64,000 bases of DNA, taken from the NCBI RefSeq assembly GCF_027257155.1, contig NZ_JAPWDU010000007.1, forward strand, positions 216,736 through 280,735. Reading direction: 5' to 3'. Within the stretch, counting starts at the first letter, position 1. Every line of letters begins with the position of its first letter. Source of the DNA: Cerasicoccus sp. TK19100. GTDB lineage: Bacteria > Verrucomicrobiota > Verrucomicrobiia > Opitutales > Cerasicoccaceae. Below, one piece after another: positions 24,336 through 47,093 of this stretch. The position numbers were made by a program, and so were the translations under genes. The notes under the pieces were generated by a model that saw nothing but the letters and a program-made list of their open reading frames with translations, did not search any database and was not told where the DNA came from.

Positions 24336-24890
24336 ATGACGCAGCTCAATATTAAGGCAAACCGCAAGGCGGTTAAATATAGCAAGCGTATACTGGCTGC
24401 TAGGCTTTGTTGGGGTTTATGTCGTTGTTTTTTTCGTTGTTCACCACGTGTTGCTTACGGGTTTCGTAACTCTCTTCTGCGGCTTTTCGGAGCAAAAGTA
24501 GGTCAAGATGTGCGGATCCATCCAACAGCCGTCATTCAATTTCCTTGGAATTTAGCTATAGGCGATTATTCATCTATCGGTGATAGTGCATACATTTACA
24601 ATCTGGGTTTTATTAATATTGGGCGGCGTTCTACCGTTTCCCAATTTGCGCACCTTTGCGCAGGTACTCATGATTTTACTGATCCCACCATGCCGTTGCT
24701 GTGTCCACCTATCTCTGTAGGCGATGACGCATGGCTTTGCGCAGAAACTTTTATTGGTCCGTCTGTTATTATAGGAAATGGCGCAGTGGTTGGAGCGCGA
24801 TCGGTTGTGGTTAAAGATGTGCCTCCCTGGAAGGTCGTAATAGGCAATCCGGCTAGAATCATAAAAGATCGTAATTTATTCAGTGAGTGA
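24336..24890 (+). CDS. WcaF-like hexapeptide acetyltransferase
   Basis: A 184-residue left-handed beta-helix acyltransferase of the colanic acid WcaF / maltose O-acetyltransferase type. Residues 57-150 hold the hexapeptide turns, with the His-containing CAGTHDFTDPTMPLL loop and the end VIGNPARIIKDR. It closely resembles the minus-strand gene at 42620 (same THDxTDPTMPLL loop and PPI-[SN]-[VI]-GDDAW), so the window has two members of this subfamily. Likely O-acetylates a sugar. It closes the 12.4-24.9 kb gene run. Confidence 0.87.
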   Translation: MTQLNIKANRKAVKYSKRILAARLCWGLCRCFFRCSPRVAYGFRNSLLRLFGAKVGQDVRIHPTAVIQFPWNLAIGDYSSIGDSAYIYNLGFINIGRRSTVSQFAHLCAGTHDFTDPTMPLLCPPISVGDDAWLCAETFIGPSVIIGNGAVVGARSVVVKDVPPWKVVIGNPARIIKDRNLFSE

Positions 24891-29736: not shown

Positions 29737-32156
29737 TGCGGTTATTGGCATGTATTTTAGTTTTAAGTTGTCTTCAGGTTGTCGCTGAAACGCGGCGAAC
29801 TGCGGTTACTAAAACGATGACTTTGTGGGATGGTGATTCAGTATTGGGAGCGATTTACTACCCGGCGAATGCCGAAGGGGATTCGCCCGAGCGCCAAGTT
29901 GCTGAAGATTTAGCGCGAATCTTGGAAGTGGCTTCTGGGAATGACTGGTCAGTGGGGCCAGAGCCACAGGGAGTTGTCATTGCTGATGGTATATTTATTG
30001 GTAGTACGATTCGGGCGCGTATCGATCGTGTCTATGGTAGTTGGGACGGACGGCAACTGACTGGAGACAGTCGTCGTGAGTTACTACATACAGCTTCTTG
30101 GGAACGCACCACGGTATTAACTCATCCACGACGTTTGGTTATCAATGGGAGCACGCCTGAGGCGACACGCTCGGGTGTTTATCGTTTCCTCCAAGAGGTC
30201 ATGGAATGCCAATGGGGCTTCCCAGGGGTGCTCGGAGAGCGTATCCCTAGCAGTGAGCGTTTTGCGCTGCGAGTGGGGACAAGAGATATACAGCCCGATT
30301 ACCTTGATCGTAAGTTTTTGCTTGGCGGTCGATTAAAGACGGACAGTGAGACTGGCTTATGGGCGCTAAGAAATGGCGCTAGCCAACACTTTAACTTCAA
30401 CCACGAACTCCACAGAATCATAACGCGAGATGTGTTGGCGAAGCATCCGGAGTGGAGAGCATGGAGATTTGGCAAGCGGACATCGTTATCCGATGTGAAA
30501 GGCAATGGCTCGCAACCCGATTTATTAGAACCGGAATTGGTCGAATATGTCAGCCAGTTTGTTAAAAACCGGGCTGAAGCTAGTCCCGATTTATTGACGG
30601 TGTCCATCGGGACGAATGACTCAATTCGCTATGATGATTCTCCGCGAACACGTGATTTCTTGCTCCCATTTTCCTACTTTCGCGGTAAGCCAAACTACTC
30701 TGATCTGGTTTTTGGCTTTAGCAATGCGGTTGCAGAAAGTGCATCCCAGATGGAGCATCCGCCAGTCATCACACAATTGGCGTACATGTGGACAGAATTA
30801 CCACCATCTTTCCCTGTGGCGGCAAACCTTATGCCATATATTTGCACGGACCAAAGCCAATGGTATGACTCTCATTATCGAGCAGAGGACGAAGCACTAA
30901 TCGATGCTTGGGGCAAGTCGGGGGTGAAGATGTTCGGTGCTTGGGAATATTATCAAGGGCAACCATATATAATACCACGCTATTTCCCACAGATCGAATC
31001 GGCCAGCGTGCGCTATCTCTATGATCAGGGGGCACGAGGTATCTTTTATTCCGGGAATCCGGTTTGGGGGTTTGATGCGCCGAAGTATTGGTTAGCAGGA
31101 CAATTGGCCTGGGACGTCGATATCAATCAAAGCAAGGCGCTCGAGGGATACTTTAAGCGGATGTATGGCCCAGCTGCCGAGGCGATGACTCGGTTCTTTG
31201 CTTATGCTGAGGAAGCTTGGATGTCTCAACCTGGCGAGGGCATGTGGTTGAAATACTGGAATAACGCAGATCAGTTTGCATTGTATCCCGCCGAGCGACG
31301 TGCGTTGATGAGCGAATGCTTGGATGAGGCGCGTCACTTGGCACTAACTATTGACAGCGAAAAAGAGCAAGCCGCTGTGCTTGATCTGATAGCCGAGACT
31401 GAATCGGCATGGGCAGTTACGCTCGCCGGTGCGGAGCTTTACGACGCATGGATGCAGATCGGTTATCCTGGCATGGATTCGAAGCCGACAGTGCAGCAAA
31501 TTGACAATTTTCGTGATAAACAACGACGCTGGCTGTCAGTTGATCGGGATGCATTTCCGAGAAGTTCTACGATGCTGAAGTTAGTTGATGGTCTTGATCC
31601 ATTGAGCCGCTGGAGTAATGGGTGGCAGTCCGTGGCTGAAGAAGATTTTACCAATGTAATCTTCGAAGGTGATTTGGACGGCGGTGGCCCTGAAAGCGTA
31701 TCCCCCAGCGATTTTCGGCGGGGATGGGCGACGATGGTCTCACATGCAGAGGGGTTAAGGGTTAAGCGTATTCTAGAGCCTTTCGCTAGGTTACGTATTG
31801 AGGGAGCCGACTATTGTAGCATTTTTCGCTGGCTTGATATCAGCGACGGCGTCGTGGGAGACTTCAAGCTTGAGGGGCGTGTGCGGGGGCACATCAGTCC
31901 TGGCTCGCAAATGGAGCTGGTTTTGTATTTCATGGATGCCGAAGGAAAAACTTCAGAGGTAATTCATAGAGACCGACTAAAGCCCGGATATTTTCCTGAA
32001 TGGATCGTTACCGCGACTGAATGCGAAATCCCTTTAGGCTCGGTGCGTGTTTACACCGGAGTCCGAGTTTCTAATCAGTACACTGATGACTGGTTGGAAA
32101 TCGAATCAATTGATTTACAATTCCGTAAAGCTGATTCATCGACTCCATCAAGCTAG
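29733..32156 (+). CDS. Secreted DUF4838-domain protein
   Basis: An 807-residue protein with a signal peptide (residues 1-18, cleaved near VVA-ET). An N-terminal alpha-glucuronidase-like segment (residues 40-190, with GVYRFLQEVMECQWGFPGVLGERIPSS) is followed by the DUF4838 region (about 200-490, with LTVSIGTNDS, IYC-type YICTDQSQWYDSHY and FGAWEYYQGQPYIIPRYFP). A C-terminal beta-rich domain follows. The fold is related to glycoside hydrolases but activity is not established. Being translationally coupled to a glycosyltransferase suggests it trims or modifies the polysaccharide made by this locus in the periplasm or outside. Confidence 0.82.
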   Translation: MMRLLACILVLSCLQVVAETRRTAVTKTMTLWDGDSVLGAIYYPANAEGDSPERQVAEDLARILEVASGNDWSVGPEPQGVVIADGIFIGSTIRARIDRVYGSWDGRQLTGDSRRELLHTASWERTTVLTHPRRLVINGSTPEATRSGVYRFLQEVMECQWGFPGVLGERIPSSERFALRVGTRDIQPDYLDRKFLLGGRLKTDSETGLWALRNGASQHFNFNHELHRIITRDVLAKHPEWRAWRFGKRTSLSDVKGNGSQPDLLEPELVEYVSQFVKNRAEASPDLLTVSIGTNDSIRYDDSPRTRDFLLPFSYFRGKPNYSDLVFGFSNAVAESASQMEHPPVITQLAYMWTELPPSFPVAANLMPYICTDQSQWYDSHYRAEDEALIDAWGKSGVKMFGAWEYYQGQPYIIPRYFPQIESASVRYLYDQGARGIFYSGNPVWGFDAPKYWLAGQLAWDVDINQSKALEGYFKRMYGPAAEAMTRFFAYAEEAWMSQPGEGMWLKYWNNADQFALYPAERRALMSECLDEARHLALTIDSEKEQAAVLDLIAETESAWAVTLAGAELYDAWMQIGYPGMDSKPTVQQIDNFRDKQRRWLSVDRDAFPRSSTMLKLVDGLDPLSRWSNGWQSVAEEDFTNVIFEGDLDGGGPESVSPSDFRRGWATMVSHAEGLRVKRILEPFARLRIEGADYCSIFRWLDISDGVVGDFKLEGRVRGHISPGSQMELVLYFMDAEGKTSEVIHRDRLKPGYFPEWIVTATECEIPLGSVRVYTGVRVSNQYTDDWLEIESIDLQFRKADSSTPSS

Positions 32157-34236: not shown

Positions 34237-35544
34237 ATGAAATTTAGCCCATTGGAAAACACACGCATTGCTATCGTGGGGTTAGGTTACGTTGGTTTGC
34301 CGCTGGCGCTTTGCCTGGCACGGCGCTTCAACGTATGTGGCTTTGACATTAGCCAGACTCGAATTGATCAACTGAGTTCGGGCCTCGATATTACGGGCGA
34401 GGCCTCTAGTGGGGATCTTGCTGAGACGAAGCTTCAGTTCACCAATGACGCCTCGCAACTGCTCGATGTTGACGTGTTTATCGTCACGGTGCCGACGCCT
34501 ATTGATAAGCACATGCGCCCGGATTTGAAGGCGGTCTGTGGGGCTAGCGAGATGGTCGGTAAGCACATGAAGCAAGGCGCGATTGTGGTTTATGAATCGA
34601 CCGTTTACCCGGGGCTTACTGAGGAAATTTGCGTTCCGATCTTGGAGGCAAGCAGCGGCTATAAGTGGAAAGAGGGCTTCTTTGTTGGCTATTCGCCAGA
34701 GCGTATTAATCCAGGAGACCGCGAGCATACCGTTGAGAAAATTGTGAAGGTGGTGGCCGGTGATACCCCCGAGACGCTGGACTACCTGAGCGAGCTGTAT
34801 GGTGCCGTCATCACGGCCGGTATTCACCGGGCGGAGAGCATCAAAGTCGCCGAGGCCGCCAAGGTTATCGAGAACACCCAGCGCGACCTTAACATTGCGC
34901 TGATGAATGAATTGGCGGTGCTCTTTGATCGACTGGATATCAACACTAACGCCGTGCTCGAAGCGGCTGGCACCAAGTGGAATTTTCTTAAATTTCAGCC
35001 GGGCTTGGTCGGTGGGCATTGCATCGGAGTGGACCCATATTACCTCACGCACAAAGCGCAGGAGGTGGGGCACCATCCCGATTTGATTCTCGCTGGGCGC
35101 CGGATCAATGACCGTATGGGTGCCTACATCGGCCAACAAGTGATTCATGGTCTGATCCGCTCAGGCAGTATGGTGAAGGGGGCCAAGGTTCTGATCCTCG
35201 GTTGGACGTTTAAAGAGAATGTGCCCGATACGCGAAATACCCGCATTGTCGACGTCTATCAGCACCTCATCGAATTCGGCGTAGAGGCGGTCGTTTGCGA
35301 TCCGATGGCCGACCCAGAAGAAGTGCGCCACGAGTACGGTGTCGATATCATCAAAGAGATGCCGAAAGACGGTCAGTTCGATGCAGTGCTTGCTGCGGTG
35401 CGCCATAAGGAATTCTGTGAGCATCTCAGTTTGACGGCTCTCAAGGCCTTGTGCTCGGGCGACAATCCCAGTCTGGTCGATGTGCGTGGACTTTTCGACC
35501 GACAGGCGTCCATTGAAGCCGGTTTCGACTACTGGCGCCTGTAA
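34237..35544 (+). CDS. UDP-N-acetylhexosamine 6-dehydrogenase (TviB/WbpO-like)
   Basis: Nucleotide-sugar dehydrogenase of 435 residues: IAIVGLGYVGLPLALCLA at the N-terminus and the active-site cysteine in GLVGGHCIGVDPYYLTHKAQ, the form typical of UDP-GalNAc/GlcNAc dehydrogenases rather than UDP-Glc enzymes. GWTFKENVPDTRNTRIVD is in the C-terminal domain. It would make UDP-GalNAcA or UDP-GlcNAcA, an acidic amino sugar for the repeat unit. It differs clearly from the ugd at 1010, which has the [10 protein letters not shown] form. Confidence 0.9.
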   Translation: MKFSPLENTRIAIVGLGYVGLPLALCLARRFNVCGFDISQTRIDQLSSGLDITGEASSGDLAETKLQFTNDASQLLDVDVFIVTVPTPIDKHMRPDLKAVCGASEMVGKHMKQGAIVVYESTVYPGLTEEICVPILEASSGYKWKEGFFVGYSPERINPGDREHTVEKIVKVVAGDTPETLDYLSELYGAVITAGIHRAESIKVAEAAKVIENTQRDLNIALMNELAVLFDRLDINTNAVLEAAGTKWNFLKFQPGLVGGHCIGVDPYYLTHKAQEVGHHPDLILAGRRINDRMGAYIGQQVIHGLIRSGSMVKGAKVLILGWTFKENVPDTRNTRIVDVYQHLIEFGVEAVVCDPMADPEEVRHEYGVDIIKEMPKDGQFDAVLAAVRHKEFCEHLSLTALKALCSGDNPSLVDVRGLFDRQASIEAGFDYWRL

Positions 35545-35577
35545 GTCGGAAAATTCCTCGCCGATAAAATCACGGCC

Positions 35578-36180
35578 ATGAAGCGGATATTCGATTTCAT
35601 TCTGGCCCTAGCATTGTTATTAGCTTTAGCCCCATTGTTTCTGGTGCTGATGCTTTTGGTGCGCCTCAAACTCGGTTCTCCGGTCTTTTTTCGGCAACCT
35701 CGGCCTGGCCTGCATGGGAACGTTTTTTCATTGATCAAGTTTCGCTCGATGACCGATCAGACCAATGCCGCCGGAGAACTGCTGCCCGATAGTGAGCGAT
35801 TAACACCGTTTGGACGATGGCTGCGGGCAAGTAGTCTGGACGAATTGCCGGAACTGCTAAACATCCTGCGCGGGCAAATGAGTTTTGTGGGGCCCCGGCC
35901 TTTACTGGTGCGGTATTTGGAGCGCTACACGCCGGAGCAGGCGCGGCGTCATGAAGTGCGCCCAGGCATCACCGGTTGGGCTCAGATCAATGGACGCAAT
36001 GCAATCTCCTGGGATGAAAAATTCCGATTGGATGTGTGGTATGTCGATCATCAAAGTTTGTGGCTGGACTTTAAAATCCTGTTAATGACCTTCACTACAG
36101 TGCTGCGGCGAGAGGGGATTTCGCCCGATGGCTCGGACACCATGCCTGAATTTCGAGGGACTTCTCAAGGTGACGAATAA
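35578..36180 (+). CDS. Monotopic phosphoglycosyl transferase (PglC-like sugar transferase)
   Basis: A 200-residue bacterial sugar transferase. A re-entrant membrane helix at the N-terminus (FDFILALALLLALAPLFLVLMLLVRLKLGSPVFFRQPRPG) precedes the catalytic core with FRSMTD, the Asp-Glu dyad in RASSLDELPELLNILRG, and GPRPLLV. This is the short PglC form, which transfers UDP-di-N-acetylbacillosamine-type phosphosugars to undecaprenyl phosphate, not the long WbaP form. It is the first gene of the 35.6-42.6 kb operon and pairs logically with the PglD-, PglE- and PglF-like genes here. Confidence 0.9.
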   Translation: MKRIFDFILALALLLALAPLFLVLMLLVRLKLGSPVFFRQPRPGLHGNVFSLIKFRSMTDQTNAAGELLPDSERLTPFGRWLRASSLDELPELLNILRGQMSFVGPRPLLVRYLERYTPEQARRHEVRPGITGWAQINGRNAISWDEKFRLDVWYVDHQSLWLDFKILLMTFTTVLRREGISPDGSDTMPEFRGTSQGDE

Positions 36181-36601
36181 CGAATTTAGACTCCACCACA
36201 TTGGCTATTTGGTCTCGGATATCGCGGGTGCACGTTTGCAGTGGGTGAACGCCTATGGCTACGAAACCGACGGTGACATTATTCATGACGCTGGACAGCA
36301 GGCACGCGTATGTTTGCTGAGAAACGCGAACGATGCACACTGGGTAGAACTGATCAGCTCCGACAGTGAAGCCAGCCATTTGCAACGGGCTTTGGATCGC
36401 AAAGTATCGCTGCATCACACTGCCTATGCGGTGGGCGATTTCAGTGCGGCGATTCAGCAATTACGAGCATCCGGTTGTGTACCATTGGGAAAACCAGCGA
36501 TCGGCGCGGCTTTCCTGCGGGAGATAATGTGGTTCCACGATCCGCTGCGGGGATTAGTCGAATTGATTGCTCCGGGTGAGGGGCCTTACCAATTGGATTG
36601 A
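36170..36601 (+). CDS. VOC (glyoxalase/methylmalonyl-CoA epimerase fold) protein
   Basis: A 143-residue vicinal-oxygen-chelate protein made of two beta-alpha-beta-beta-beta units. Possible metal ligands are His in LHHIGYLV, Glu in WVELIS, His in LHHTAYAV and Glu in GLVELI. I chose GTG 36170, 9 bases after GAGGGA and overlapping the preceding stop, over ATG 36128. Family members isomerise, epimerise or lyse small acyl compounds. Lying between PglC- and PglD-like genes and an acyl-carrier set, it may act on the acyl precursor, for example an epimerisation. No such gene is part of the V. cholerae rfb set as I recall it. Confidence 0.78.
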   Translation: MTNNEFRLHHIGYLVSDIAGARLQWVNAYGYETDGDIIHDAGQQARVCLLRNANDAHWVELISSDSEASHLQRALDRKVSLHHTAYAVGDFSAAIQQLRASGCVPLGKPAIGAAFLREIMWFHDPLRGLVELIAPGEGPYQLD

Positions 36602-36631
36602 TTTTCCCGGACAAACAACGACGCTTTTAAC

Positions 36632-37282
36632 ATGGCAACACCACTACTCATCATCGGTGCCGGAGGATTTTCATTGGAGGTCATCTGGCTGGCCAATGCG
36701 ATGAATGCAACTGGCGCGGCGGATTGGGAGATCGCTGGTTTGGCTGACGATCGCGTCGCCGTTGGTGAACGCATGGGCGGCTATGCCGTGCTTGGTTCGC
36801 CCCTTGAAGCGGTCAGCAAAGTGCCGGCTGGCGCGTCTTTTCATATCGCTATTGGTGACAACGCGGTGCGCCAGCGAATCGCGGAGCAATTGACTGCCGC
36901 GGGCCTTGTGCCAGCCACACTGGTCAGCCCACGGGCGGAAGTCGCGACCGATGCGTCCATCGGTGCGGGCAGTTTTATCGGCCACTTTGTATCCATTGCG
37001 CCGGAGGCGGTGGTGGGTGCCCATGCGCTCATCAACGTCTCGGCAGTGGTGGGACATGAGGCGCAGGTTCAGGACTTTGCACAGCTATGCCCGGGCGTTG
37101 TCGTTACCGGCCAATGTCAGGTGGGGCAGGGGGCATTTTTAGGGAGTAACGCCGTGCTGCATCCTGGTGTAAAGATTGGTGATTGGGCCCGCGTTTCCGC
37201 AAACACCTTTGCCGCCATGGATGTCGAGCCTGGGGTGACGCTGGCCACGATGCCGGGGCGGCCTGTTTTTAAGCGAAAATGA
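36632..37282 (+). CDS. PglD/NeuD-family sugar N-acyltransferase
   Basis: A 216-residue protein with a Rossmann-like N-terminal domain (LLIIGAGGFSLEVIWLANAM) for UDP-sugar binding and a C-terminal left-handed beta-helix. His142 in SAVVGHEAQVQDF lies where PglD has its catalytic base. PglD acetylates the 4-amino group of UDP-4-amino-sugars. Here an ACP gene follows 52 bases downstream, so the donor could be an acyl-ACP rather than acetyl-CoA. This is inference from context only. Confidence 0.87.
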   Translation: MATPLLIIGAGGFSLEVIWLANAMNATGAADWEIAGLADDRVAVGERMGGYAVLGSPLEAVSKVPAGASFHIAIGDNAVRQRIAEQLTAAGLVPATLVSPRAEVATDASIGAGSFIGHFVSIAPEAVVGAHALINVSAVVGHEAQVQDFAQLCPGVVVTGQCQVGQGAFLGSNAVLHPGVKIGDWARVSANTFAAMDVEPGVTLATMPGRPVFKRK

Positions 37283-37334
37283 TCGCAGCGGCCCGCCCTT
37301 GACTTATCCACGGAAAACCACACGCATTGAGCAA

Positions 37335-37562
37335 ATGGAAGAAAAGCTTCGAGACCTCATCATCGCTCAGTTAAAAATCGAGCCCGGCCAATACTCGGAA
37401 GAACTCGGCGCGGGCGATATTCCGGAGTGGGATTCCCTGGCGCACATGAATCTGATCATGGCTGTGGAAAAAGAGTTTCGTATCACTTTCGATGTTGCCG
37501 ATGCCGTTGACTTGGAAACGGTGGGCGATTTTCAAGATGCGCTTCGGCGATATCAGGCTTAG
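37335..37562 (+). CDS. Acyl carrier protein (RfbK-like position)
   Basis: A 75-residue four-helix acyl carrier protein. Ser34 in EWDSLAHMNLIMAVEKEF is the phosphopantetheine attachment site. ATG 37335 is taken as start; the frame runs back to TTG 37299 but the added residues (TYPRKTTRIEQ) are not ACP-like. It is not linked to fatty-acid genes but to an AMP ligase, an alcohol dehydrogenase and a LuxE-LuxC fusion, so it is a dedicated carrier. The order ACP, ligase, Fe-ADH, LuxE/C corresponds to rfbK, L, M, N of V. cholerae O1. Confidence 0.92.
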   Translation: MEEKLRDLIIAQLKIEPGQYSEELGAGDIPEWDSLAHMNLIMAVEKEFRITFDVADAVDLETVGDFQDALRRYQA

Positions 37563-37566
37563 TCTT

Positions 37567-37586
37567 TTTCGGCGTAGTTGCCGAAA
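37567..37586 (+). promoter_or_regulatory. Hairpin between the ACP and AMP-ligase genes
   Basis: TTTCGGC, six bases, GCCGAAA: a 7-bp perfect stem starting 5 bases after the ACP stop, without a following T tract. It could protect the upstream mRNA end and let the ACP be made in excess; function unproven. Confidence 0.35.
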
Positions 37587-37604
37587 CCATAACCTCTGGC
37601 GGCC

Positions 37605-38981
37605 TTGCAAAAGTTAGCTGATATCATTGGCCGCGGTGCTTCGCAATGGCCTGATGCTCTTGCCGTTGCTGACGCGAGTGAGTCTTACACATACGTGTCT
37701 TTGGCGACCGCCTCTGCTAGCGTTGGCACTTGGTTGCTGGAGCAAGGTGTCGCGGCCGGAGATCGCGTGGTGGTCTGCCTGCCAAACAGTGCCCGCTTCG
37801 TTGTCGCATTGTTCGGGGGGCAGTTTGCCGGAGCGGTAGTGGTGCCCTTGGATCCCGCGCTGCCCGAGGCACAAATTTCCGCGATTATCGAGCGGACGGG
37901 GGCGAGAGTGGTGCTGAGTGAATCTTCGCCATGGGAGGCGATCTTTGAAAATTCACCTATGGCGCATCCGGCTGAGCGACAGCCGGAAGACCTCGCGGCC
38001 TTGATGTTTACCACGGGAACAACGGGCCGCCCCAAAGGGGTGATGCTGACGCACGCCAACATCCTGGCCGCGCTGTCGAACATCATCGAGTTTGTGGGTT
38101 ATCGGCCGACTGATCGCGAAGTCATCACTCTGCCGTTGACGCACAACTTTGGGCTCGGCCACGTGTATTGTAACTTGTTGGCAGGTGGCGCAGTATATTT
38201 GGAGCCTGGTTTGAAGCGCATTGGGCGGGTGCTGAAGGCGATCGAATCATTTGGCGCGACTGGCTTCCCGACTACGCCGATGGGGGTGTCTTTGCTGCTT
38301 GATCGATATGCGGAAGTTTTCAAAGAGCGTGCGAAAAACTTGCGCTTCATGGTGGTTAATTCGGCACCATTACCGCCCGAGCGCGCGGCCCAGTTGCAAG
38401 CAGCGTTGCCCGATTTAAACATCCTCGTTTACTACGGGCTGACTGAGGCGTCGCGCTCCTGCTTCATTTCCTTGTCGCAGGAGGGGCCGGCTCGCTATCG
38501 TTCGGTGGGCAAGCCAATGGCGGGCGTGCAGATGCGATTGGACGATGATGGCCAAGTTTTGATTGGCGGCCCCACGCTCACTCCCGGCTATTGGGATGAC
38601 GCCAGTCTGACCAAGGAAAAAATAATTAACGGGGAACTGCACACCGGCGATCTCGGAGAATTTGACAACGAGGGGAATCTCTACATCGCCGGGCGGTTGG
38701 ACGATACCATCAACATCGGCGGCTACAAAGTGAACCCGATGGATGTGGAGCGCCGGTTGGAAAGTTATCCGGGGGTCAAAGAATGTGCCGTGGTCGGCGC
38801 TGAGGTGATTACGGCTTTCTACGTGAGCGATCAGGATTTGGATGAAGACTCCTTGGTCCGGCATTGTCGTGAAGTGCTTCAGATATTTGAAACGCCGCAA
38901 GTCTTCCGGCGGCTGGAGCGTCTGCCGCGGACGGATAGCGGCAAGCTCAAACGCAAAGAGTTGCCCATAGCTGGCATTTGA
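37605..38981 (+). CDS. AMP-dependent acyl-ACP/CoA ligase (ANL superfamily, RfbL-like)
   Basis: Adenylating enzyme of 458 residues. The P-loop motif FTTGTTGRPKG is at 135-145, then ITLPLTHNFGLGH, VYYGLTEASR and LHTGDLGEFD; the hinge/core is GRLDDTINIGGYKVNP and the catalytic C-terminal lysine is in DSGKLKRKEL. It activates a carboxylic acid as acyl-AMP and passes it to a thiol, most likely the phosphopantetheine of the adjacent ACP. Start codon TTG 37605. The substrate is unknown; by analogy with rfbL it would be a small hydroxy acid. Confidence 0.9.
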   Translation: MQKLADIIGRGASQWPDALAVADASESYTYVSLATASASVGTWLLEQGVAAGDRVVVCLPNSARFVVALFGGQFAGAVVVPLDPALPEAQISAIIERTGARVVLSESSPWEAIFENSPMAHPAERQPEDLAALMFTTGTTGRPKGVMLTHANILAALSNIIEFVGYRPTDREVITLPLTHNFGLGHVYCNLLAGGAVYLEPGLKRIGRVLKAIESFGATGFPTTPMGVSLLLDRYAEVFKERAKNLRFMVVNSAPLPPERAAQLQAALPDLNILVYYGLTEASRSCFISLSQEGPARYRSVGKPMAGVQMRLDDDGQVLIGGPTLTPGYWDDASLTKEKIINGELHTGDLGEFDNEGNLYIAGRLDDTINIGGYKVNPMDVERRLESYPGVKECAVVGAEVITAFYVSDQDLDEDSLVRHCREVLQIFETPQVFRRLERLPRTDSGKLKRKELPIAGI

Positions 38982-39012
38982 CGTTCACCGGGTAACCGTA
39001 TTCAATCTCGCT

Positions 39013-40137
39013 ATGCTTCAAATTCGATTGCCATTGCCCCGGTTTGTTTCGGCGGGCGAGATCTTTAGCGGTTCGGGATCGCTGGGAGCCTTGCGTGCGC
39101 TGGACGCCTCGAGGGCAATGGTCTTGGCATCGGGCTCGGTATTGGCCAATCATGCGGCGCTTATTGAGCGATCGATTGGAGCGGAGGTCGTGCGCCTCGT
39201 CGAAATGCCCAAAGGCGAACCGAAGCTTGCGACACTCAAACCGGTGCTGGCGCAAGTGGAAGCATTTTGGCCTGACTGGATCATTGCCATCGGCGGTGGT
39301 TCGGTGATCGACGGTGCGAAGCTTGCCTGGATTTTTTACGAGCATCCGGCCGTTGATCGAGAGCGACTTTTCCTGATGGGCGGGCTGCCAACTTTGCGTG
39401 GCAAAGCAAAGTTCGTTGCGGTGCCGACCACCGCTGGCACCGGTTCGGAAGTCAGCTCCTCGGCTTTGCTTATTGATGAGGCAAGTGGTGCCAAGCAAGC
39501 GATCGTTTCGCATGAACTGTTGCCGGACATTGCAATTCTCGACTCACGCTTGGCCTTGGGCTGTGCCCCGAGCGTCATTGCTAATGCGGGCATGGATGCA
39601 CTGGCGCATGCGGTGGAGAGTTACGCCTCACGGCTGAATAATCCACTGGCCGATGCTTTGGCGGAAAAAGCGGCGGGCGATATCCTGCAGCTCTTGCCAC
39701 AGTTTTATCAAAGTCCGGATAATGAAACGCTCTGCCTGGCGATGCTCAATGCATCGCTGCTGGCCGGATGGGTGCAAAACCAGAAAGTGCCGGGCATCGG
39801 CCATGCCATTGCGCACCAGTTGGGTGATTTCGGCGTGGCGCATGGTGCGGCTACCGGACGCTTATTGGCGGCGGCTATGGAATTCAACTGCCGTGATTCA
39901 GCCGCTCGAGCGAAGTATGATACTTTGGCCGGAAAGTGCGGATTTGCTGACGCGGATGCCTTGGCTGCTGGCATCAAGCAGCTAGCGGATGAGCTGTCGC
40001 TGGATACTTTGTCAGACAAAGTTTACGCAAAGATTCCGGAGATTGCCAAAGGTGCGGCCGACGATCCTTGTGCGAAGTTTAACCCTCTGGAAGTCAACGA
40101 AGATGCGGTTCGTGCCGTGCTGGAAAGTGCGCGATGA
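39013..40137 (+). CDS. Iron-type alcohol dehydrogenase (RfbM-like)
   Basis: Group III (iron-containing) NAD(P)-dependent alcohol dehydrogenase of 374 residues. NAD site GGGSVID (94-100), TTAGTGSE (139-146), and metal ligands Asp195, His199, His264 and His277, positions almost identical to E. coli FucO. It reduces an aldehyde to an alcohol. Overlap of four bases with the acyl-CoA reductase fusion fits a two-step reduction of a carboxyl group to a primary alcohol, with the aldehyde handed on. The physiological substrate is not known. Confidence 0.92.
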   Translation: MLQIRLPLPRFVSAGEIFSGSGSLGALRALDASRAMVLASGSVLANHAALIERSIGAEVVRLVEMPKGEPKLATLKPVLAQVEAFWPDWIIAIGGGSVIDGAKLAWIFYEHPAVDRERLFLMGGLPTLRGKAKFVAVPTTAGTGSEVSSSALLIDEASGAKQAIVSHELLPDIAILDSRLALGCAPSVIANAGMDALAHAVESYASRLNNPLADALAEKAAGDILQLLPQFYQSPDNETLCLAMLNASLLAGWVQNQKVPGIGHAIAHQLGDFGVAHGAATGRLLAAAMEFNCRDSAARAKYDTLAGKCGFADADALAAGIKQLADELSLDTLSDKVYAKIPEIAKGAADDPCAKFNPLEVNEDAVRAVLESAR

Positions 40138-42623
40138 TTGAGAACTTGATCAAGACGCCACCCTATAGCTTGCCTTCTGCCGAAAAAGCTCAGCGGCTGT
40201 TGGAGGCGATGCATGAGGCATACCGCCACCACGTTGATAACTGTGCGGCGTATGCGCGTTTCTGTGCCGGTCGTGGGTTGAACCGTGATTCGGAGTTTAA
40301 GTCGCTGGCGGATTTTCCCTACCTGCCCGTGCAGGCGTTTAAGGATTCGGCGGACCTGTTGCGGTCGGTGCCAGAGGATCAGATTAAGACGAAGCTACAA
40401 TCTTCCGCCACCAGCGGCATGCCAAGCACGACGCCGATTGACGGCGTTACGGCGAAACGGCAGGTTCGTGCCTTGGCCGGTGTGTTGGGTGCCGCGTTGG
40501 GGCCCAAGCGGCGGCCACTGATTGTGTTTGATGCCGATCCGCGAAGTGGCCGCGGGATAATGGGGGCCCGCAGTGCAGCCGTGCAGGGCTTCCTCAATCT
40601 TGCGCGCGAGGTTCACTACGCGATGTCGCCTCAAGAAGGTGTATTAACTTTGCAACGCAAAGTATTGGCTGATTTGTCAAAATCTTGGAGCTCATCCAGT
40701 GAGCCGGTTTTGTTGTTCGGCTTTACTTACTTGATTTATTCGATGGCGCTGGAGCCGTTGGCGAAGGAAGGCATCAGGTTGCCCTTGCCTGCCGGTTCGA
40801 AGCTGGCGCATTTGGGTGGCTGGAAAAAGCTGGCTGATCGCGCTGTTTCGAAGGAGGAGTTTGCCCGTTGCGCAGAGCTCGTCTTTGGTATTTCGCCGGA
40901 GAACGTTGTCGACTTCTATGGTTTCACCGAGCAGATGGGCGTCACCTATCCAGACGCGCCAAGCGGCGATAAAATGGTGCCGGCGTTTGCCGAAGTCATT
41001 GTGCGTGATCCCAAAACGCTAGAGCCATGCGCTGATGGCGAGGTCGGGCTGTTGCAGTTTTTAACACCTTTGCCCTACAGCTACCCGGGCATTTCGGTGC
41101 TCACGGATGACATCGGCGTGATCACCAGTCGCGATGACTCCGGTGATTGGCATGGTGCGCGTTTTCGGGTGCTTGGCCGCGCTAAAAATGCCGAAGTCCG
41201 CGGCTGTGGCGATATTCTGGGCGACAAAGTTGCCGCTGCCCAAGCGCGTAGCAGCGCGCGAGAACAAGACATGCGTTTGCTGTTTTCGTTCGATCACGCT
41301 CCGGCCTCACAGGGGCGTTGGGATGCCCCGCTGAGTATGGAATCGCTGCCGCAAGTTGACTCGGTTACACAGTTGGTGGAGCGCTTGAAAAAAGGTCGCA
41401 AGAGGTTGGACCATTATTCCGTGGATGATCTGATTGCGATCATCAGCGCGGCTGCCCGCCGTTGGGCGGAACCGGATTCGGAGTTGCGCGAATTGCGGCA
41501 GCAAGGGCTGCTGTTTCTGAGCTCATGGTGCCGGCCGGAGCGATTGGCGCGACTAGCGGACGAGAGCTTGCGCGGACGGCGTGGCTATCTGGATGGTCCG
41601 TTGCCCATTGCCGGATCACGCGTCCGGCATCTCGGTGCCCGTCAGCGTGGCTTGGTCGTGCACTGGCTCGCGGGGAATGTGCCGGTGCTCGGCATGCTGA
41701 CGCTGGTGCAATCCATCTTAGCGCGTAACGCAAACCTGATCAAGGCGGCCAGCCGTTTCACGCGCGTGCTGCCGATGTTGTTGGATGCATTCCGTGGCTT
41801 GAAGGTTGTCACACCGGGCGGGCGCGAGCTTTTGGGCGACGACATTTTGGCCTCGATTGCGGTCGTATATTTTGACCGGGAGGACTCGATTTCAGCACAA
41901 GCAATTTCGAGCGCGGCGGATGTGCGCCTGGCATGGGGCGGACGCGAGGCCATCGAGTCGGTAGCTACTTTGCCACGCAAAGTTACCGCCGAGGACATCC
42001 TCTTTGGGCCAAAGCTTTCCTTTATGGTGATTGGGCAATCCGCCTTCGATAAGGAGCGCAAGATTAAGCGACTGGCGCGTCGTGCGGCGACGGATGTTTG
42101 CGTGTTTGAGCAAACTGGTTGCGCCTCGCCTCACACGATATTTATCGAGCGCGGAGAAAATTTATCTGCCGAAGACTTTGCCGTTCTCTTGGCGGCGGAG
42201 CTGGACAAAGCCCTGGTCCGTTTTCCCCCGCCACCGATTTCACCGGATGATGCTTCGCGCGTGGAAGCCCGCCGTATTCGAGGCGAGCTGACCGGTCGCG
42301 TGTGGCGCTCAAAAGGCACGGCATGGACCGTCATTCTGGATGATGCTGGTGCTGAGTTGGCTTCGCCCTGTTATGGGCGCGTCATCACGATACGCGAAGT
42401 TGATCGTATCGACGAAATTTTGCCGCTGGTCCATGATGGCATCCAGACCATTGGTCTGGCGCTGGAAGGGGAGCCGCGCCTGCACTTCGTCCAATGCGCC
42501 TCGCGACGCGGTGCCGAGCGATTTCCGGACATTGGACGGATGACCTTGTTTGAGGCACCTTGGGATGGCTTGTTCCCGCTGGAGCGCTTGGTCAAGTGGT
42601 ATACGCTGGGTGGGCCGGTTTAG
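40134..42623 (+). CDS. LuxE-LuxC fusion: acyl-protein synthetase and acyl-CoA reductase (RfbN-like)
   Basis: An 829-residue two-domain protein. Residues 1-380 are LuxE-like, with SATSGMPSTTPI (91-102) and FYGFTEQMG (261-269); Cys358 in EVRGCGD matches the position of the acyl-accepting cysteine near the LuxE C-terminus. Residues about 400-829 are LuxC-like, with HWLAGNVPVLG (510-520) and the catalytic cysteine Cys663 in FEQTGCASPH. Together they would activate an acid, hold it as a thioester and reduce it to an aldehyde with NADPH. There are no luxA/luxB genes, so this is not bioluminescence. V. cholerae RfbN has the same domain pair. Confidence 0.9.
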   Translation: MIENLIKTPPYSLPSAEKAQRLLEAMHEAYRHHVDNCAAYARFCAGRGLNRDSEFKSLADFPYLPVQAFKDSADLLRSVPEDQIKTKLQSSATSGMPSTTPIDGVTAKRQVRALAGVLGAALGPKRRPLIVFDADPRSGRGIMGARSAAVQGFLNLAREVHYAMSPQEGVLTLQRKVLADLSKSWSSSSEPVLLFGFTYLIYSMALEPLAKEGIRLPLPAGSKLAHLGGWKKLADRAVSKEEFARCAELVFGISPENVVDFYGFTEQMGVTYPDAPSGDKMVPAFAEVIVRDPKTLEPCADGEVGLLQFLTPLPYSYPGISVLTDDIGVITSRDDSGDWHGARFRVLGRAKNAEVRGCGDILGDKVAAAQARSSAREQDMRLLFSFDHAPASQGRWDAPLSMESLPQVDSVTQLVERLKKGRKRLDHYSVDDLIAIISAAARRWAEPDSELRELRQQGLLFLSSWCRPERLARLADESLRGRRGYLDGPLPIAGSRVRHLGARQRGLVVHWLAGNVPVLGMLTLVQSILARNANLIKAASRFTRVLPMLLDAFRGLKVVTPGGRELLGDDILASIAVVYFDREDSISAQAISSAADVRLAWGGREAIESVATLPRKVTAEDILFGPKLSFMVIGQSAFDKERKIKRLARRAATDVCVFEQTGCASPHTIFIERGENLSAEDFAVLLAAELDKALVRFPPPPISPDDASRVEARRIRGELTGRVWRSKGTAWTVILDDAGAELASPCYGRVITIREVDRIDEILPLVHDGIQTIGLALEGEPRLHFVQCASRRGAERFPDIGRMTLFEAPWDGLFPLERLVKWYTLGGPV

Positions 42624-43180
42624 GTCGTCTTCTCCTTGAGCTCTCGTCGCTTAATCTCCTTAGCTGGATGACCGACCGCCACCATCCATGGAGCAACATT
42701 TTTCACCACGATGGACCGTGCTCCAATGACGGCACCAGTGCCAATGTTGACTCCCGGACCAATGAAGCACCCGGCGCAGACCCAAGCGTCGTCCCCAATA
42801 TTAATCGGTGGCATGAGCAAAGGCATCGTCGGATCGGTGTAGTCGTGGGTGCCCGAGCAAAGGTGGGAGCATTGGGAAATCGTCGCCCGCTGCCCAATGG
42901 TCACGTCACCGTGATTATCGATAAAGGCGCGTTCGCCGATACTCGACTCATCTCCGATTTGGAGGTTCCAAGGGTAGGATATGATTGCGCCGGGGTGGAT
43001 GTGCACATCCTTGCCAATCTGCGCGCCGTTCATGCGTAAAATCGTGGAGCGCAATTCGAAAAGCGGGGTGGGTGTTAGCCGGAAAAGGATACGGCTGATT
43101 TCCCAGCGGGCCCGCTTAAAAATGTAGGAGCTGGAATGATGGCGTCCCGAGCGATTGCCTTGAATGTCGAGTTGGCTCAT
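42620..43180 (-). CDS. WcaF-like hexapeptide acyltransferase (RfbO-like position)
   Basis: A 186-residue left-handed beta-helix acyltransferase. Turns run across residues 52-150, with the histidine loop CSGTHDYTDPTMPLL and the end VAVGHPAKEIKRRELK. It is a paralogue of 24336-24890. It lies where rfbO (acetyltransferase) would be but on the opposite strand, ending convergently with the LuxE-LuxC gene with a four-base stop overlap. It is probably co-transcribed with the EpsI-like gene upstream on the minus strand. It could be the enzyme that transfers the ACP-borne acyl group, or simply an O-acetylase. Confidence 0.87.
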   Translation of the reverse strand: MSQLDIQGNRSGRHHSSSYIFKRARWEISRILFRLTPTPLFELRSTILRMNGAQIGKDVHIHPGAIISYPWNLQIGDESSIGERAFIDNHGDVTIGQRATISQCSHLCSGTHDYTDPTMPLLMPPINIGDDAWVCAGCFIGPGVNIGTGAVIGARSIVVKNVAPWMVAVGHPAKEIKRRELKEKTT

Positions 43181-43202: not shown

Positions 43203-43910
43203 CTAGGCTTGCTCCGGGGCTTCCGGCGGCGTGAGGGTGAGATCGGCCAAATCCTTGAGGATTTCCTGCATCATCGGGGTGTCCCAGATCTCGTCAATGG
43301 GGCGGTTGCTGTTGATGCGGACAAAGAATTGCTCACGCTGCTGATGCAGGCCATAAACAAAAAGTGTTTTGATCGGGTCCCAGCGGTCCCACTGGCCGGC
43401 CTTCGAGCGATTTACGTAAATATGGTCGCCCAGCACATGCCAGTAGGCAACGTATTCTGTGTGGTTGCTTTTGGAGAGCGTTCGCATTTCGGCCGGAAAG
43501 AGCGGTTGGCCCTCCAGTTGGCAGTTCACGGAAAAGCCACTTTCCTCGGGATGCATTTCCCAGCCACTGCGGACCCAGCAGACGTCCGGCGTGTGAGATT
43601 GCACCAGGCGCACAGGCATCATTTTAGGCTCCCAGTAGGCGACATAGACGCCGATCGTGGTGCCACCGCGCTGGTAGGTGCGGTAAACCGCCTGCGAAAA
43701 GTTCAAAATGCCTTCGACGGTTTCTTGCATGGCTTCGGTCTCGGCCAGGGGCTGCTCTTCAATCTCCCAGCCGTCAAATTCGGACACCAGCTGCTCCTTC
43801 AAGTCACCGTGCATGGTTTTGGTGGGTGTGTAGAACAAGGTCGTATAGGCCAAGGCGGACAGGCTGCCCAAGGCGATGACGATACCAAAAATGAGTAAAA
43901 ACTTGCGCAT
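43203..43910 (-). CDS. EpsI-family exosortase-associated protein
   Basis: A 235-residue protein with an N-terminal signal anchor (KFLLIFGIVIALGSLSALAYT) and a periplasmic domain. It contains YVAYWEPKMMPVRLVQSHTPDVCWVRSGWEM, the recognisable EpsI core: a conserved Cys in the HxPxVC-x4-GW motif. EpsI proteins accompany exosortases in exopolysaccharide and PEP-CTERM sorting systems. No exosortase gene is in this window. ATG 43910 is preferred to 43955, whose first 15 residues are not part of the signal. A divergent 103-base promoter region separates it from the aminotransferase. Confidence 0.78.
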   Translation of the reverse strand: MRKFLLIFGIVIALGSLSALAYTTLFYTPTKTMHGDLKEQLVSEFDGWEIEEQPLAETEAMQETVEGILNFSQAVYRTYQRGGTTIGVYVAYWEPKMMPVRLVQSHTPDVCWVRSGWEMHPEESGFSVNCQLEGQPLFPAEMRTLSKSNHTEYVAYWHVLGDHIYVNRSKAGQWDRWDPIKTLFVYGLHQQREQFFVRINSNRPIDEIWDTPMMQEILKDLADLTLTPPEAPEQA

Positions 43911-44013
43911 GGTGCTGGATGCTGGAATGGAAAATGACAGCCAAAAGCTGTGCAAATAGAGATGGTATTATTGGCGAGGTGTTCCAAACTTTCAACCGTA
44001 ACTTTGATCTTCC

Positions 44014-45135
44014 ATGAGCGACCGCATTTACCTCTCCCCGCCTGATATGTCCACCGCCGAGCGTGATTCACTGATGGCGGCGTTTGATTCTGGCTGGGTG
44101 GCACCGGTGGGGCCGCATTTGAAAGCGTTTGAGGACGGTTTATGCGCCGTGACGGGGGCTGCGCATGCGGTGGCGCTATCCTCGGGGACGGCGGCGCTGC
44201 ACCTGGCGCTACTCGAAGCAGGCGTTGGCGAGGGAGACCGCGTGTATTGCTCCACATTGACCTTCGTCGCTTCGGTAAACGCCATTCGCTACTGCGGTGC
44301 TGAGCCGGTGCTGATTGATTGTGAAGCCCGTAGCTGGCAAATGTGCCCGAATCTGCTGGCAGACTTGCTGAAGCGAGATGCCGCTGCGGGCCAATTGCCC
44401 AAAGCAATTCAGGTCGTCGACGTGTATGGGCAATGCGCGGACTACGCGGCAATTGAAGCGTTGTGCCTGGAATATGGCGTCACGATCATCGAAGATGCTT
44501 CCGAGGCCTTAGGGGCCACGCACGGTCAGCGGGGGGCGGGCTCGATTGGTAAGGTCGCCGCGCTTTCCTTCAACGGGAATAAGCTAATCACTACTTCCGG
44601 TGGTGGTGCCTTGCTGACCAATGAGGCCTCGATTGCCGAACACGCACGCTACTTATCGACACAGGCGCGCAAGCCGGTGCGTGAGTATTTGCACGAAGAC
44701 ACCGGCTACAATTACCGAATGAGTAATTTGCTGGCCGGCCTGGGGCAGGGGCAGCTTTCACGCCTTGAAGGAATGATTAAGCGCAGGCGGGAGATTTTTT
44801 CTCGGTATGCCGGGGAGCTGCAGGCCGAGGGTGTCTCATTTATGCCAGAGGCAAGCTGGGGGCAATGCAACCGCTGGCTGACATGTCTCACCCTCCAAGA
44901 CGCTGGGTGCACCTCACTAGAGTTGATTGAAGCACTGGAGCGAGAGAACATTGAAGCTCGCCCCGTATGGCGACCAATGCACCGTCAGCCGGTGTGCGAA
45001 AAATACGAAAGAATCCTGAATGGCGTATCGGATCGGCTCTATGAAACGGGTTTGTGTTTGCCCAGTGGTAGTGTGATGTCAGATGAGCAGCAGAGCCGGG
45101 TCATTGCAGTGGCGAAGCGATGCTTGCAAATGTGA
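44014..45135 (+). CDS. DegT/DnrJ/EryC1 sugar aminotransferase (PglE-like)
   Basis: PLP-dependent nucleotide-sugar aminotransferase of 373 residues. Signature parts are ALSSGTAALHLALLEAG (53-69), DASEALGAT (161-169) and the Schiff-base Lys190 in SFNGNKLITTSGGGAL. It would aminate C4 of the UDP-4-keto-6-deoxy sugar made by the PglF-like enzyme just downstream, giving the substrate of the PglD-like acyltransferase at 36632. The subgroup with WxxMH near the C-terminus (RPVWRPMHRQPV) matches PglE/WeeJ-type enzymes. Confidence 0.92.
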   Translation: MSDRIYLSPPDMSTAERDSLMAAFDSGWVAPVGPHLKAFEDGLCAVTGAAHAVALSSGTAALHLALLEAGVGEGDRVYCSTLTFVASVNAIRYCGAEPVLIDCEARSWQMCPNLLADLLKRDAAAGQLPKAIQVVDVYGQCADYAAIEALCLEYGVTIIEDASEALGATHGQRGAGSIGKVAALSFNGNKLITTSGGGALLTNEASIAEHARYLSTQARKPVREYLHEDTGYNYRMSNLLAGLGQGQLSRLEGMIKRRREIFSRYAGELQAEGVSFMPEASWGQCNRWLTCLTLQDAGCTSLELIEALERENIEARPVWRPMHRQPVCEKYERILNGVSDRLYETGLCLPSGSVMSDEQQSRVIAVAKRCLQM

Positions 45136-45194: not shown

Positions 45195-47093
45195 ATGAAG
45201 AGCGGCATTCGCAGAACCAGAATCATCCACGGCGCTTTGATCGTCGTTGCTGCGCTGCTTTCGCTGTTTCTAGCCTACCAAATCCGCTTTGAGTTTAACT
45301 TACCGACGGAGCCGGTGAATTGGGAAGCACGTATGTGGCACACGATGAAGTGGATCCTGCCGCTGGAATACATCGTGTTTTATGCGCTGGGATTGTTTTC
45401 GCCGCTGGTAGCGCGCTTCAGTTGGTGGGACTTTTGCCGGGTCGGCACTGCGGTTGCCTTACTGTCGGGCTTTCTGCTGTATTTGTGGTTTATATTCTCG
45501 GGGGACAAGACGGCCCCGCGCTCGGTGATCTTTATCAACGGGCTGTTCCTCTTTACCACGCTTTGCAGTATCATGGCGCTATCGGCGCATCTGCGGCACA
45601 TCCTGACGGGTAATCTCTCCGAGCTGCCGGTGCGGGCCTCGCGGGTTGTTTCCGTAGGAACCGGATTTCTGGCTTACCAATTAATCGAGCAGACGCGCAG
45701 CCGCCGTGGACTGGGCATGCGGGTGGTTGGCGTAGTCGACTCACGGGGTAGATTCCGTGATGGCCAGCATTGGCAAGGGGCACCCGTGGGCGGAGGCATT
45801 GATCAACTGGAGAGCGTTTGCCGCCGGTTTGATCCCGACCGCATCATCATCACCGATCCGGAGCTCCCGGCAGAGCAGGTACGACAGCTGGTGTGGAAAT
45901 GTCGCCGCTTGCACGTGCCGCTTTTCATTGTCCCGAGCACCCAGGAGATGCCCAATGGCGTGCTGCGGGTGGAAGAGATACGGCCTGTCGGGCTGGACGA
46001 CGTCCTGGGGCGGAATTCGCTGGATATCGATCTGCCGCGCATCCATCGCTTACTCAGTGGCAAGCGTGTGCTCGTGACGGGGGCAGGGGGGAGCATCGGC
46101 AGCGAGCTTTCTCGCCAGATCCTCGCCATGGGGCCCAGCAAGCTGTTGCTTCTGGACAGCTCCGAGCCTTCGCTCTTCCAGATCGAGCAACGCCTGCGCA
46201 AGGAGGATAACGGTAGCTGCGTGAATGCGGTTTTGGCGGACGTGCGGGACCTCTCGGCCATGCATACCGTTTTTCAAAACGAGACGCCGGAGGTGATCTT
46301 TCACTCGGCCGCATTGAAGCATGTGCCGATGATGGAAATGTATCCCGGGGAAGGGCTGCAAACCAACACGTTGGGCACCCACCAGTTGGCCGAGCTGGCG
46401 GAGAAATTTGGGGCCGAGCGCATGGTGTTTATTTCGACGGATAAGGCAATTAACCCGACGAGCCTGATGGGTGCCTCTAAGCGTTTGGCTGAGCAATTGA
46501 TCCAAGCCAGACCCAGGGACAAAGGAGGTCCGGCATTCCTCGCGGTGCGCTTTGGCAACGTGATCGGCTCTTCGGGCAGCGTCGTGCCTATTTTTGAAAA
46601 GCAAATTGCTGCGGGCGGGCCGGTGACCGTGACTCATGCTGACGTGACGCGGTATTTTATGTCGATCCCCGAAGCGGTCGGGTTGGTGCTGCAAAGCGCG
46701 ACACAAGGCAGTGGCGGCGAGATATTTATGCTCGATATGGGCGAGCCGCTCAAGGTGCTGGACATTGCCCGGCTGATGATCGAAATGCGCGGGCTGGAGC
46801 CAGACAAAGATATCGCGGTGAAGATTATCGGACTGCGCCCCGGCGAAAAATTATTCGAAGAGCTCAGCTACGACGCCGAGATCCACGACCACACGACGCA
46901 CCCGCGCGTTTACCGACTCACGGCTCCGCCGCTAACTGCCGAAGAGGCCGCACGGTTAATGGCGAGTATTCAGGACGCCATCAATTTACGTGACGCGAAT
47001 GCGATTCGGGAAGCGGTCAGAATCATATTGCCGGAATTCATTGCCCCAGAGACGGATAAGGATTCTGAGGTAAGCGCTGCGATCCAGGCGTAA
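45195..47093 (+). CDS. UDP-GlcNAc 4,6-dehydratase (PglF/WbpM/CapD-like)
   Basis: A 632-residue membrane-anchored protein: four N-terminal helices (residues 10-140), a Rossmann-like middle domain (VVSVGTGFLAYQLIEQ) and the catalytic SDR domain (RVLVTGAGGSIGSELSRQIL, ADVRDL, HSAALKHVPMME). The active site has Met in place of Tyr in LMGASKR, the SMK triad of the long inverting/retaining dehydratases such as WbpM and PglF. It makes UDP-4-keto-6-deoxy-GlcNAc, the precursor of bacillosamine- or quinovosamine-type sugars. The preceding aminotransferase uses the product. Confidence 0.93.
   Translation: MKSGIRRTRIIHGALIVVAALLSLFLAYQIRFEFNLPTEPVNWEARMWHTMKWILPLEYIVFYALGLFSPLVARFSWWDFCRVGTAVALLSGFLLYLWFIFSGDKTAPRSVIFINGLFLFTTLCSIMALSAHLRHILTGNLSELPVRASRVVSVGTGFLAYQLIEQTRSRRGLGMRVVGVVDSRGRFRDGQHWQGAPVGGGIDQLESVCRRFDPDRIIITDPELPAEQVRQLVWKCRRLHVPLFIVPSTQEMPNGVLRVEEIRPVGLDDVLGRNSLDIDLPRIHRLLSGKRVLVTGAGGSIGSELSRQILAMGPSKLLLLDSSEPSLFQIEQRLRKEDNGSCVNAVLADVRDLSAMHTVFQNETPEVIFHSAALKHVPMMEMYPGEGLQTNTLGTHQLAELAEKFGAERMVFISTDKAINPTSLMGASKRLAEQLIQARPRDKGGPAFLAVRFGNVIGSSGSVVPIFEKQIAAGGPVTVTHADVTRYFMSIPEAVGLVLQSATQGSGGEIFMLDMGEPLKVLDIARLMIEMRGLEPDKDIAVKIIGLRPGEKLFEELSYDAEIHDHTTHPRVYRLTAPPLTAEEAARLMASIQDAINLRDANAIREAVRIILPEFIAPETDKDSEVSAAIQA

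Follow-up and report, generated by a model that had tools for sequence, protein, structure and literature searches.

A conserved LuxE-LuxC cassette in a Cerasicoccus glycan locus is predicted to supply a small, seemingly exchangeable hydroxy acid for N-acylation of an amino sugar

The 64,000-nucleotide stretch of Cerasicoccus sp. TK19100 DNA analysed here (the window) contains a real and conserved cassette of four genes encoding an acyl carrier protein (ACP), an AMP-forming acid ligase, an iron-containing alcohol dehydrogenase (Fe-ADH) and a LuxE-LuxC fusion (LuxEC); many genomes support both its parts and its likely use. Protein families and gene context predict, with a probability of about 0.6, that the cassette reduces one carboxyl group of a small diacid and loads the hydroxy acid on the ACP, and that a PglD-type enzyme then N-acylates the 4-amino group of a sugar nucleotide; the hydroxy acid would likely end up on a cell-surface amino sugar, and it seems to be an exchangeable part. 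The predicted pathway has seven steps: activation of the acid by LuxE as acyl-AMP, to be held as a thioester on Cys358; transfer of the acyl group to LuxC (Cys663) and reduction to the aldehyde; conversion of the aldehyde to the alcohol by Fe-ADH; loading of the remaining carboxyl on the ACP by the ligase; adjustment of the alpha carbon of the acyl thioester by a protein of the VOC superfamily; N-acylation of the PglF/PglE product by PglD; and transfer of the sugar to a lipid carrier by PglC. The supply of the acid looks exchangeable, since some relatives have a PglD-type gene, in most cases together with a VOC gene, next to an FkbH/KAS III/ACP block instead. The genes concerned are these:

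34237..35544, plus strand: UDP-sugar 6-dehydrogenase type gene, first of the conserved run (78-81% in three Cerasicoccus loci, adjoining PglC)
35578..36180, plus strand: PglC-type initiating sugar-phosphate transferase (PF02397, 219 bits)
36128..36601 (open reading frame; start maybe internal, near 36170), plus strand: VOC/glyoxalase-superfamily protein (PF13669, 58 bits)
36632..37282, plus strand: PglD-type left-handed beta-helix transferase, candidate N-acyltransferase (PF17836 PglD_N, 55 bits)
37335..37562 (open reading frame 37299-37562 from TTG; likely start ATG 37335), plus strand: acyl carrier protein (PF00550, 22.5 bits, cut-off 20.8)
37605..38981, plus strand: AMP-forming acid ligase (PF00501, 240 bits; PF13193, 39 bits)
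39013..40137, plus strand: iron-containing alcohol dehydrogenase (PF00465, 110 bits; PF25137, 103 bits)
40134..42623, plus strand: LuxE-LuxC fusion, 829 aa (PF04443 and PF05893, 266 bits each)
42620..43180, minus strand: WcaF-type hexapeptide transferase (NF007797, 181 bits, cut-off 192)
43203..43955, minus strand: EpsI-like protein, DUF3485 (PF11984, 51 bits)
44014..45135, plus strand: PglE/LegC-type sugar aminotransferase (PF01041, 301 bits; TIGR04181, 363 bits, cut-off 420)
45195..47093, plus strand: PglF-type membrane UDP-sugar 4,6-dehydratase (PF02719, 364 bits; PF13727, 36 bits)

The plus-strand run from 34237 to 42623 opens with what we take to be a WbpA-like UDP-sugar 6-dehydrogenase and continues through PglC, VOC, PglD, ACP, ligase, Fe-ADH and LuxEC with short gaps or overlaps; the WcaF-type and EpsI-like genes are convergent to it, and the PglE- and PglF-type genes lie beyond them on the plus strand. 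Glycosyltransferases, a Wzy_C protein and a flippase-type protein surround the run, which marks the region as a polysaccharide locus. The initial annotation had described a row of five gene types between 35578 and 43180 (ACP, AMP ligase, Fe-ADH, LuxE-LuxC and hexapeptide transferase), and profile matches place all five there; the same interval also holds PglC-type, VOC and PglD-type genes that were absent from that row. Its verrucomicrobial setting and Pgl-type amino-sugar genes likewise stand, the latter by profile (PglF, PglE and PglC types). The ACP carries a WDSLAHM site, and its 76-aa homologue in locus L003 fits the internal ATG start. The EpsI-like gene is kept in 4/4 Cerasicoccus loci, and an 807-aa DUF4838 protein is encoded within the glycan locus at 29733-32156.

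Conservation of the cassette was assessed by a scan of named genomes that returned 152 relatives; the best 80 of them were retrieved, and all cassette counts describe that set. Locus L010, in which no LuxEC open reading frame was found, was left out of the table and the window added, giving 80 tabulated loci, 68 of which have at least 3.5 kb of upstream DNA and were counted (12 were left out). Among these 68 loci from the best 80 of 152 relatives, a ligase match lies within 4 kb of LuxEC in 65 and an ACP match within 5 kb in 65, by profiles that were built from the same loci in which they were counted; these frequencies indicate an association above chance. Fe-ADH is present in 43/68 loci by script, and in 34 of the 43 the order is ACP, ligase, Fe-ADH, LuxEC. 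The loci in this order come from six phyla: Verrucomicrobiota, Pseudomonadota, Bacteroidota, Bacillota, Spirochaetota (L023) and Nitrospirota (L014). Nine of the 43 depart from it: three Winogradskyella (nearest ACP downstream), two Lachnospiraceae (nearest ligase downstream), L069 and three Magnetococcales, in which the ligase or ACP is downstream or was not found. The cassette is often close to sugar genes.

In pairwise distances, LuxEC correlates closely with Fe-ADH (r 0.94, 49 loci), ACP (0.81, 71 loci) and ligase (0.79, 75 loci) but hardly with the sugar aminotransferase (0.20, 28 loci); in a common set of 16 loci, the values are 0.50 for the aminotransferase, 0.93 for the ligase and 0.94 for Fe-ADH. 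(A set with three extra Vibrio loci has 71 with enough upstream DNA; the 68-locus counts exclude them.) A quick LuxEC tree of 73 rows, which carries warnings of long branches (L076, L034, L014, L012, L009) and of atypical residue composition for many members of the window's clade, places the window in a mainly verrucomicrobial clade of 10 rows with support 99, separate from a Vibrio/Marinomonas clade (support 100); the Verrucomicrobiota branch has a support of only 72. Near LuxEC, four loci encode a family of about 350 aa (L013:12454-13521, L015:7568-8662, L016:12833-13822, L026:12481-13536) that adjoins a polysaccharide-deacetylase-like gene and in 3/4 of these loci has a PseF-like cytidylyltransferase cluster gene nearby; its search against Pfam and NCBIfam profiles gave no match over cut-off. 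A protein of about 355 aa within 5 kb of LuxEC in 10/43 Fe-ADH loci was considered by eye to be a GNAT transferase, an assignment that Pfam and NCBIfam do not support and that we set aside.

In Bacteroidota, a split transketolase pair often takes the place of Fe-ADH. The pair occurs upstream of the ACP in 16/25 loci counted without Fe-ADH and in 0/43 with it, and an MBL-fold hydrolase shows the same pattern (7/25 and 0/43); one of the 25, L006, has an Fe-ADH directly upstream of LuxEC that the script, allowing little overlap, did not count, so the better split is 44 loci with Fe-ADH and 24 without, L006 being also without the transketolase pair. The two halves, of about 277 and 321 aa, are encoded in L040, L043, L044, L046, L047, L048, L050, L052, L058, L059, L060, L062, L065, L068, L070 and L074; L045 is without the pair, and L053 has one half only, on upstream DNA that is too short. 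Mutual exclusion of this kind is expected if both enzymes use the LuxC aldehyde, so that the transketolase of Bacteroidota loci may extend (condense) the aldehyde that the other lineage reduces. Record titles assign 22 of the 25 loci to Bacteroidota, and phylum and gene content are therefore confounded in this pattern. Ligase and ACP are kept with LuxEC in loci counted without Fe-ADH as well (24/25 and 25/25, respectively), as would suit a reversed order of events in which the ligase first loads the diacid on the ACP and LuxEC then reduces the free end of the ACP-bound acid; LuxE, however, should have its own activation site and need no prior ligase, and we consider the reversed order unlikely, retaining reduction before loading.

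LuxEC consists of a LuxE domain (residues 7-366) and a LuxC domain (residues 428-822), both of which score over the cut-offs of their Pfam superfamilies. Cys358 and Cys663, which we take to be the acyl-carrying cysteines, are invariant in 22 LuxEC sequences and align with the LuxE and LuxC cysteines of the solved complex 7xc6. The top fold match of the AlphaFold2 model (mean pLDDT 83.6, pTM 0.67) is the LuxC chain of 7xc6 (chain A), and PaaK adenylating enzymes rank lower. The Photobacterium LuxC-LuxE fatty acid reductase (7xc6) has both domains and both aligned cysteines in common with LuxEC of the window, which differs in being one fused chain and in scoring far below the NCBIfam fatty-acid equivalog cut-offs (LuxC, 101.3 of 750 bits; LuxE, 87 of 550 bits). 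LuxEC is the sole LuxC match in the genome, and the fusion is rare in the order, occurring in 5/273 sampled genomes, four of them Cerasicoccus. Fe-ADH scores below every NCBIfam cut-off; AdhE and ErcA are its two best models, followed by 4-hydroxybutyrate dehydrogenase (154 bits, cut-off 500).

The LuxE and LuxC proteins of light organs have fatty acids as substrates. A liposugar has also been proposed, in the available parts of PMC7874193 and PMC4875605, for flagellin glycosylation islands that encode an ACP, an AMP ligase, LuxE and LuxC. By extension, the cassette might process fatty acids for a lipid-bearing sugar, a prospect made very unlikely by the low scores against the fatty-acid LuxC and LuxE models, by the names of Fe-ADH relatives, which are mostly those of small-alcohol enzymes, and by the reported handling of 2,4-dihydroxybutanoic acid by the V. 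cholerae counterpart (PMC12208996, in the part available). The flagellin islands, of Aeromonas group II and Enterobacteriaceae, resemble the window in keeping these four functions together; they differ, as described in the same portions of PMC7874193 and PMC4875605, in having LuxE and LuxC as separate genes, a 3-oxoacyl-ACP reductase, no mention of Fe-ADH and a flagellin setting, the sugar in Aeromonas being pseudaminic acid. For the cassette of the window, we favour a small diacid as the predicted substrate.

The rfbKLMNO (wbe) genes of V. cholerae O1 are reportedly 3-deoxy-tetronate genes, and Morona 1995 is said to be the study cited for them. In the available part of PMC9201469, VC0249 is RfbL, VC0250 an Fe-ADH, VC0251 an acyl protein synthase/acyl-CoA reductase and VC0252 an acetyltransferase; the corresponding parts of PMC12208996 and PMC3441752 report, respectively, that RfbL activates 2,4-dihydroxybutanoic acid with the carrier RfbK and that wbeL mutants have altered or absent O antigen. 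The initial annotation had likened the whole five-gene row to rfbKLMNO, in gene types and in order. By these published descriptions of the V. cholerae genes, the likeness holds for the four core genes: carrier, AMP ligase, Fe-ADH and LuxE-LuxC reductase are adjacent in the window in the order of RfbK and VC0249-VC0251 (PMC9201469 and PMC12208996, parts available). It fails for the fifth, a WcaF-type gene on the minus strand; the window differs further from the O1 module, whose product is 2,4-dihydroxybutyryl on perosamine, in its Pgl-type amino-sugar genes and in having PglD and VOC genes in the block. Among Vibrio genomes, 4/227 contain a full-length LuxEC fusion, none of them identifiable as O1, and LuxE-only matches number three; a plasmid search for LuxEC gave 81 records, all of less than 60% identity; and no V. 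cholerae label appears in the best 120 of 329 or the best 120 of 951 protein matches, most rows of which are without names. It is plausible that the cassette belongs to the V. cholerae O1 rfb type of module.

The weakest step of the scheme is the choice of acid, for which the best single guess, by analogy with V. cholerae, would be a 2-hydroxy acid such as 2,4-dihydroxybutyrate from malate. The ligases of the window's clade have N-H-Y or N-H-L at positions 181, 186 and 188 in 9/10 cases (L007 has S-H-Y), compared with S-R-R or S-R-K in 56/62 other ligases. By alignment to an adenylation domain, these positions are candidates for a pocket role, and we assume that they line the acid pocket; with such clade-specific residues, the ligases of this clade may take another acid than those of other cassettes do. 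The same mechanism might accordingly act on succinate to give 4-hydroxybutyrate, on malonate to give 3-hydroxypropionate or on tartronate to give glycerate. These variants are compatible with the overall scheme, and we give them a chance only a little short of even in view of the ligase positions, of 4-hydroxybutyrate dehydrogenase among the best NCBIfam neighbours of Fe-ADH, and of the use in a sibling block of FkbH, the proposed glyceryl-ACP maker (PMC7489565, in the part available). A nearer relationship of the ligase with NRPS adenylation domains than with CoA ligases had also been considered and was rejected because the high score of LgrA is the sum of two domains.

The PglD-type protein is the likelier N-acyltransferase, as a predicted role, than the WcaF-type protein encoded on the opposite strand. 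Its gene lies 52 bp upstream of the ACP gene in the window and adjoins it in 4/4 Cerasicoccus genomes and in genome G266; the protein scores over the cut-offs of PF17836 and PF00132 and reaches 160.7 bits against the TIGR03570 cut-off of 160.8. Its PDB relatives are mostly named acetyltransferases, given which it might acetylate instead. The WcaF-type gene, assigned by profile to enzymes that presumably perform O-acetylation, directly follows LuxEC in the window, as it does in C. arenae (71%); at the loci examined, C. frondis and C. maritimus lack it in this position, although the rest of the block is intact. The initial annotation had counted this gene as part of the module and as the RfbO equivalent. 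Its position and the acetyltransferase gene VC0252 after RfbN in V. cholerae O1 (PMC9201469, in the part available) would suit an arrangement in which the WcaF-type protein transfers the acyl group and PglD only N-acetylates; convergent orientation, a profile that favours WcaF-type enzymes, absence from this place in 2/4 Cerasicoccus loci (a check of the locus only) and the presence of other hexapeptide genes in the same locus make that arrangement improbable. The gene was therefore rejected as a conserved part of the module and probably lies outside the cassette, and its absence at this place in two species, together with the location of PglD beside the ACP, makes the PglD-type protein the better candidate. 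The further hexapeptide transferase genes are at 24336-24890 and 19344-19952 of the window.

Between PglC and PglD lies a VOC metalloenzyme-type gene that had been overlooked. The protein model (pLDDT 88.7) has the VOC fold and matches 3hdp and methylmalonyl-CoA epimerases; all of 15 sequences have H24, H97 and E145, and almost all have E74, and we take these four residues to be metal ligands. By family profile, the best match in both sequence and fold is C. acetobutylicum glyoxalase I (3hdp, 2qh0; about 137 bits, only about 25% identical, its activity being taken from PDB titles), followed by methylmalonyl-CoA epimerases. Assignment as a methylmalonyl-CoA epimerase was rejected, the TIGR03081 score (36.1 of 114.95 bits) being far below the cut-off although the fold is alike. 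A VOC homologue is found within 5 kb of LuxEC in 13/43 loci with Fe-ADH, four of these (L027, L056, L066, L079) being short or doubtful, and in 4/25 counted without. Close VOC homologues (E up to 1e-20) are restricted to 7/273 sampled genomes of the order, all in the window's family, and in all seven the gene sits in an acyl-ACP block: the LuxEC cassette in four and an FkbH/KAS III/ACP block in three. The LuxEC cassette of G266 is without VOC, which is therefore not essential.

In place of the LuxEC cassette, genomes G344, G247 and G281 possess an SDR, a PglD-type gene, KAS III, VOC, ACP and an FkbH protein (TIGR01686, cut-off 146.65: 311 bits in G344 and 279 bits in G247; 50% by tblastn in G281), and G356 has PglD-type, KAS III, ACP and FkbH genes without a VOC or SDR match. 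These sibling blocks, of the kind known from tetronate antibiotics, thus combine an acyl-ACP supply and KAS III with a PglD-type gene, and with VOC in 3/4; their acid would derive from 1,3-bisphosphoglycerate, by way of the proposed FkbH-made glyceryl-ACP (PMC7489565, in the part available), as opposed to acid reduction in the LuxEC cassette. With KAS III in the block, the product may be longer than glyceryl. The PglD-type genes are 38% (G344), 30% (G247) and 26% (G281) identical to that of the window; G344, like the window, has EpsI-like and PglE-type genes adjacent to the block, and in G247, G281 and G356 the FkbH block is apart from such genes. Given the low PglD identity in G247 and G281, only G344, with its common EpsI- and PglE-type neighbours, is a firm case of the two blocks occupying one and the same slot. 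Two acid sources thus seem to substitute for one another next to PglD-type transferases, with G344 as the clearest case, which would make the acid supply swappable, and the location of 7/7 close VOC genes in one or the other kind of acyl-ACP block supports this. If a 2-hydroxyacyl thioester is the common product of both blocks, VOC might well act at its alpha carbon.

Tentatively, and with the odds leaning against the proposal as a whole, the N-acyl group can be pictured as a plug-in: a PglD-type core, mostly with VOC, would be fed acyl-ACP by exchangeable cassettes, for either LuxE-LuxC reduction or FkbH glycerate loading; VOC would be a new ACP-dependent alpha-carbon isomerase or epimerase acting on a 2-hydroxyacyl thioester common to both; and the split transketolase of Bacteroidota would extend the LuxC aldehyde in place of reduction. 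Our literature search found no description of a VOC gene with such a cassette or of the swap with FkbH, and the PglD/VOC core, the apparent swap and the transketolase alternative seem to be new. A putative O-antigen scheme published for one pathogen would thereby become a widespread modular amino-sugar decoration with examples from six phyla. What seems to be a natural exchange inside a single bacterial family allows two acid sources to be compared cleanly, next to similar transferase and VOC genes, and VOC itself is a lead to a potential new activity.

In relatives of the window, the FkbH/KAS III/ACP blocks that include a PglD-type gene are located at L128:4228-9880, L129:4655-10234, L130:6741-12481 and L131:4637-8942. 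In L129-L131 the block adjoins a gene that by eye resembles a diaminopimelate decarboxylase gene, and it is distant from sugar genes such as those of the window; near the block of L128 is encoded an 806-aa protein, close in length to the DUF4838 protein of the window.
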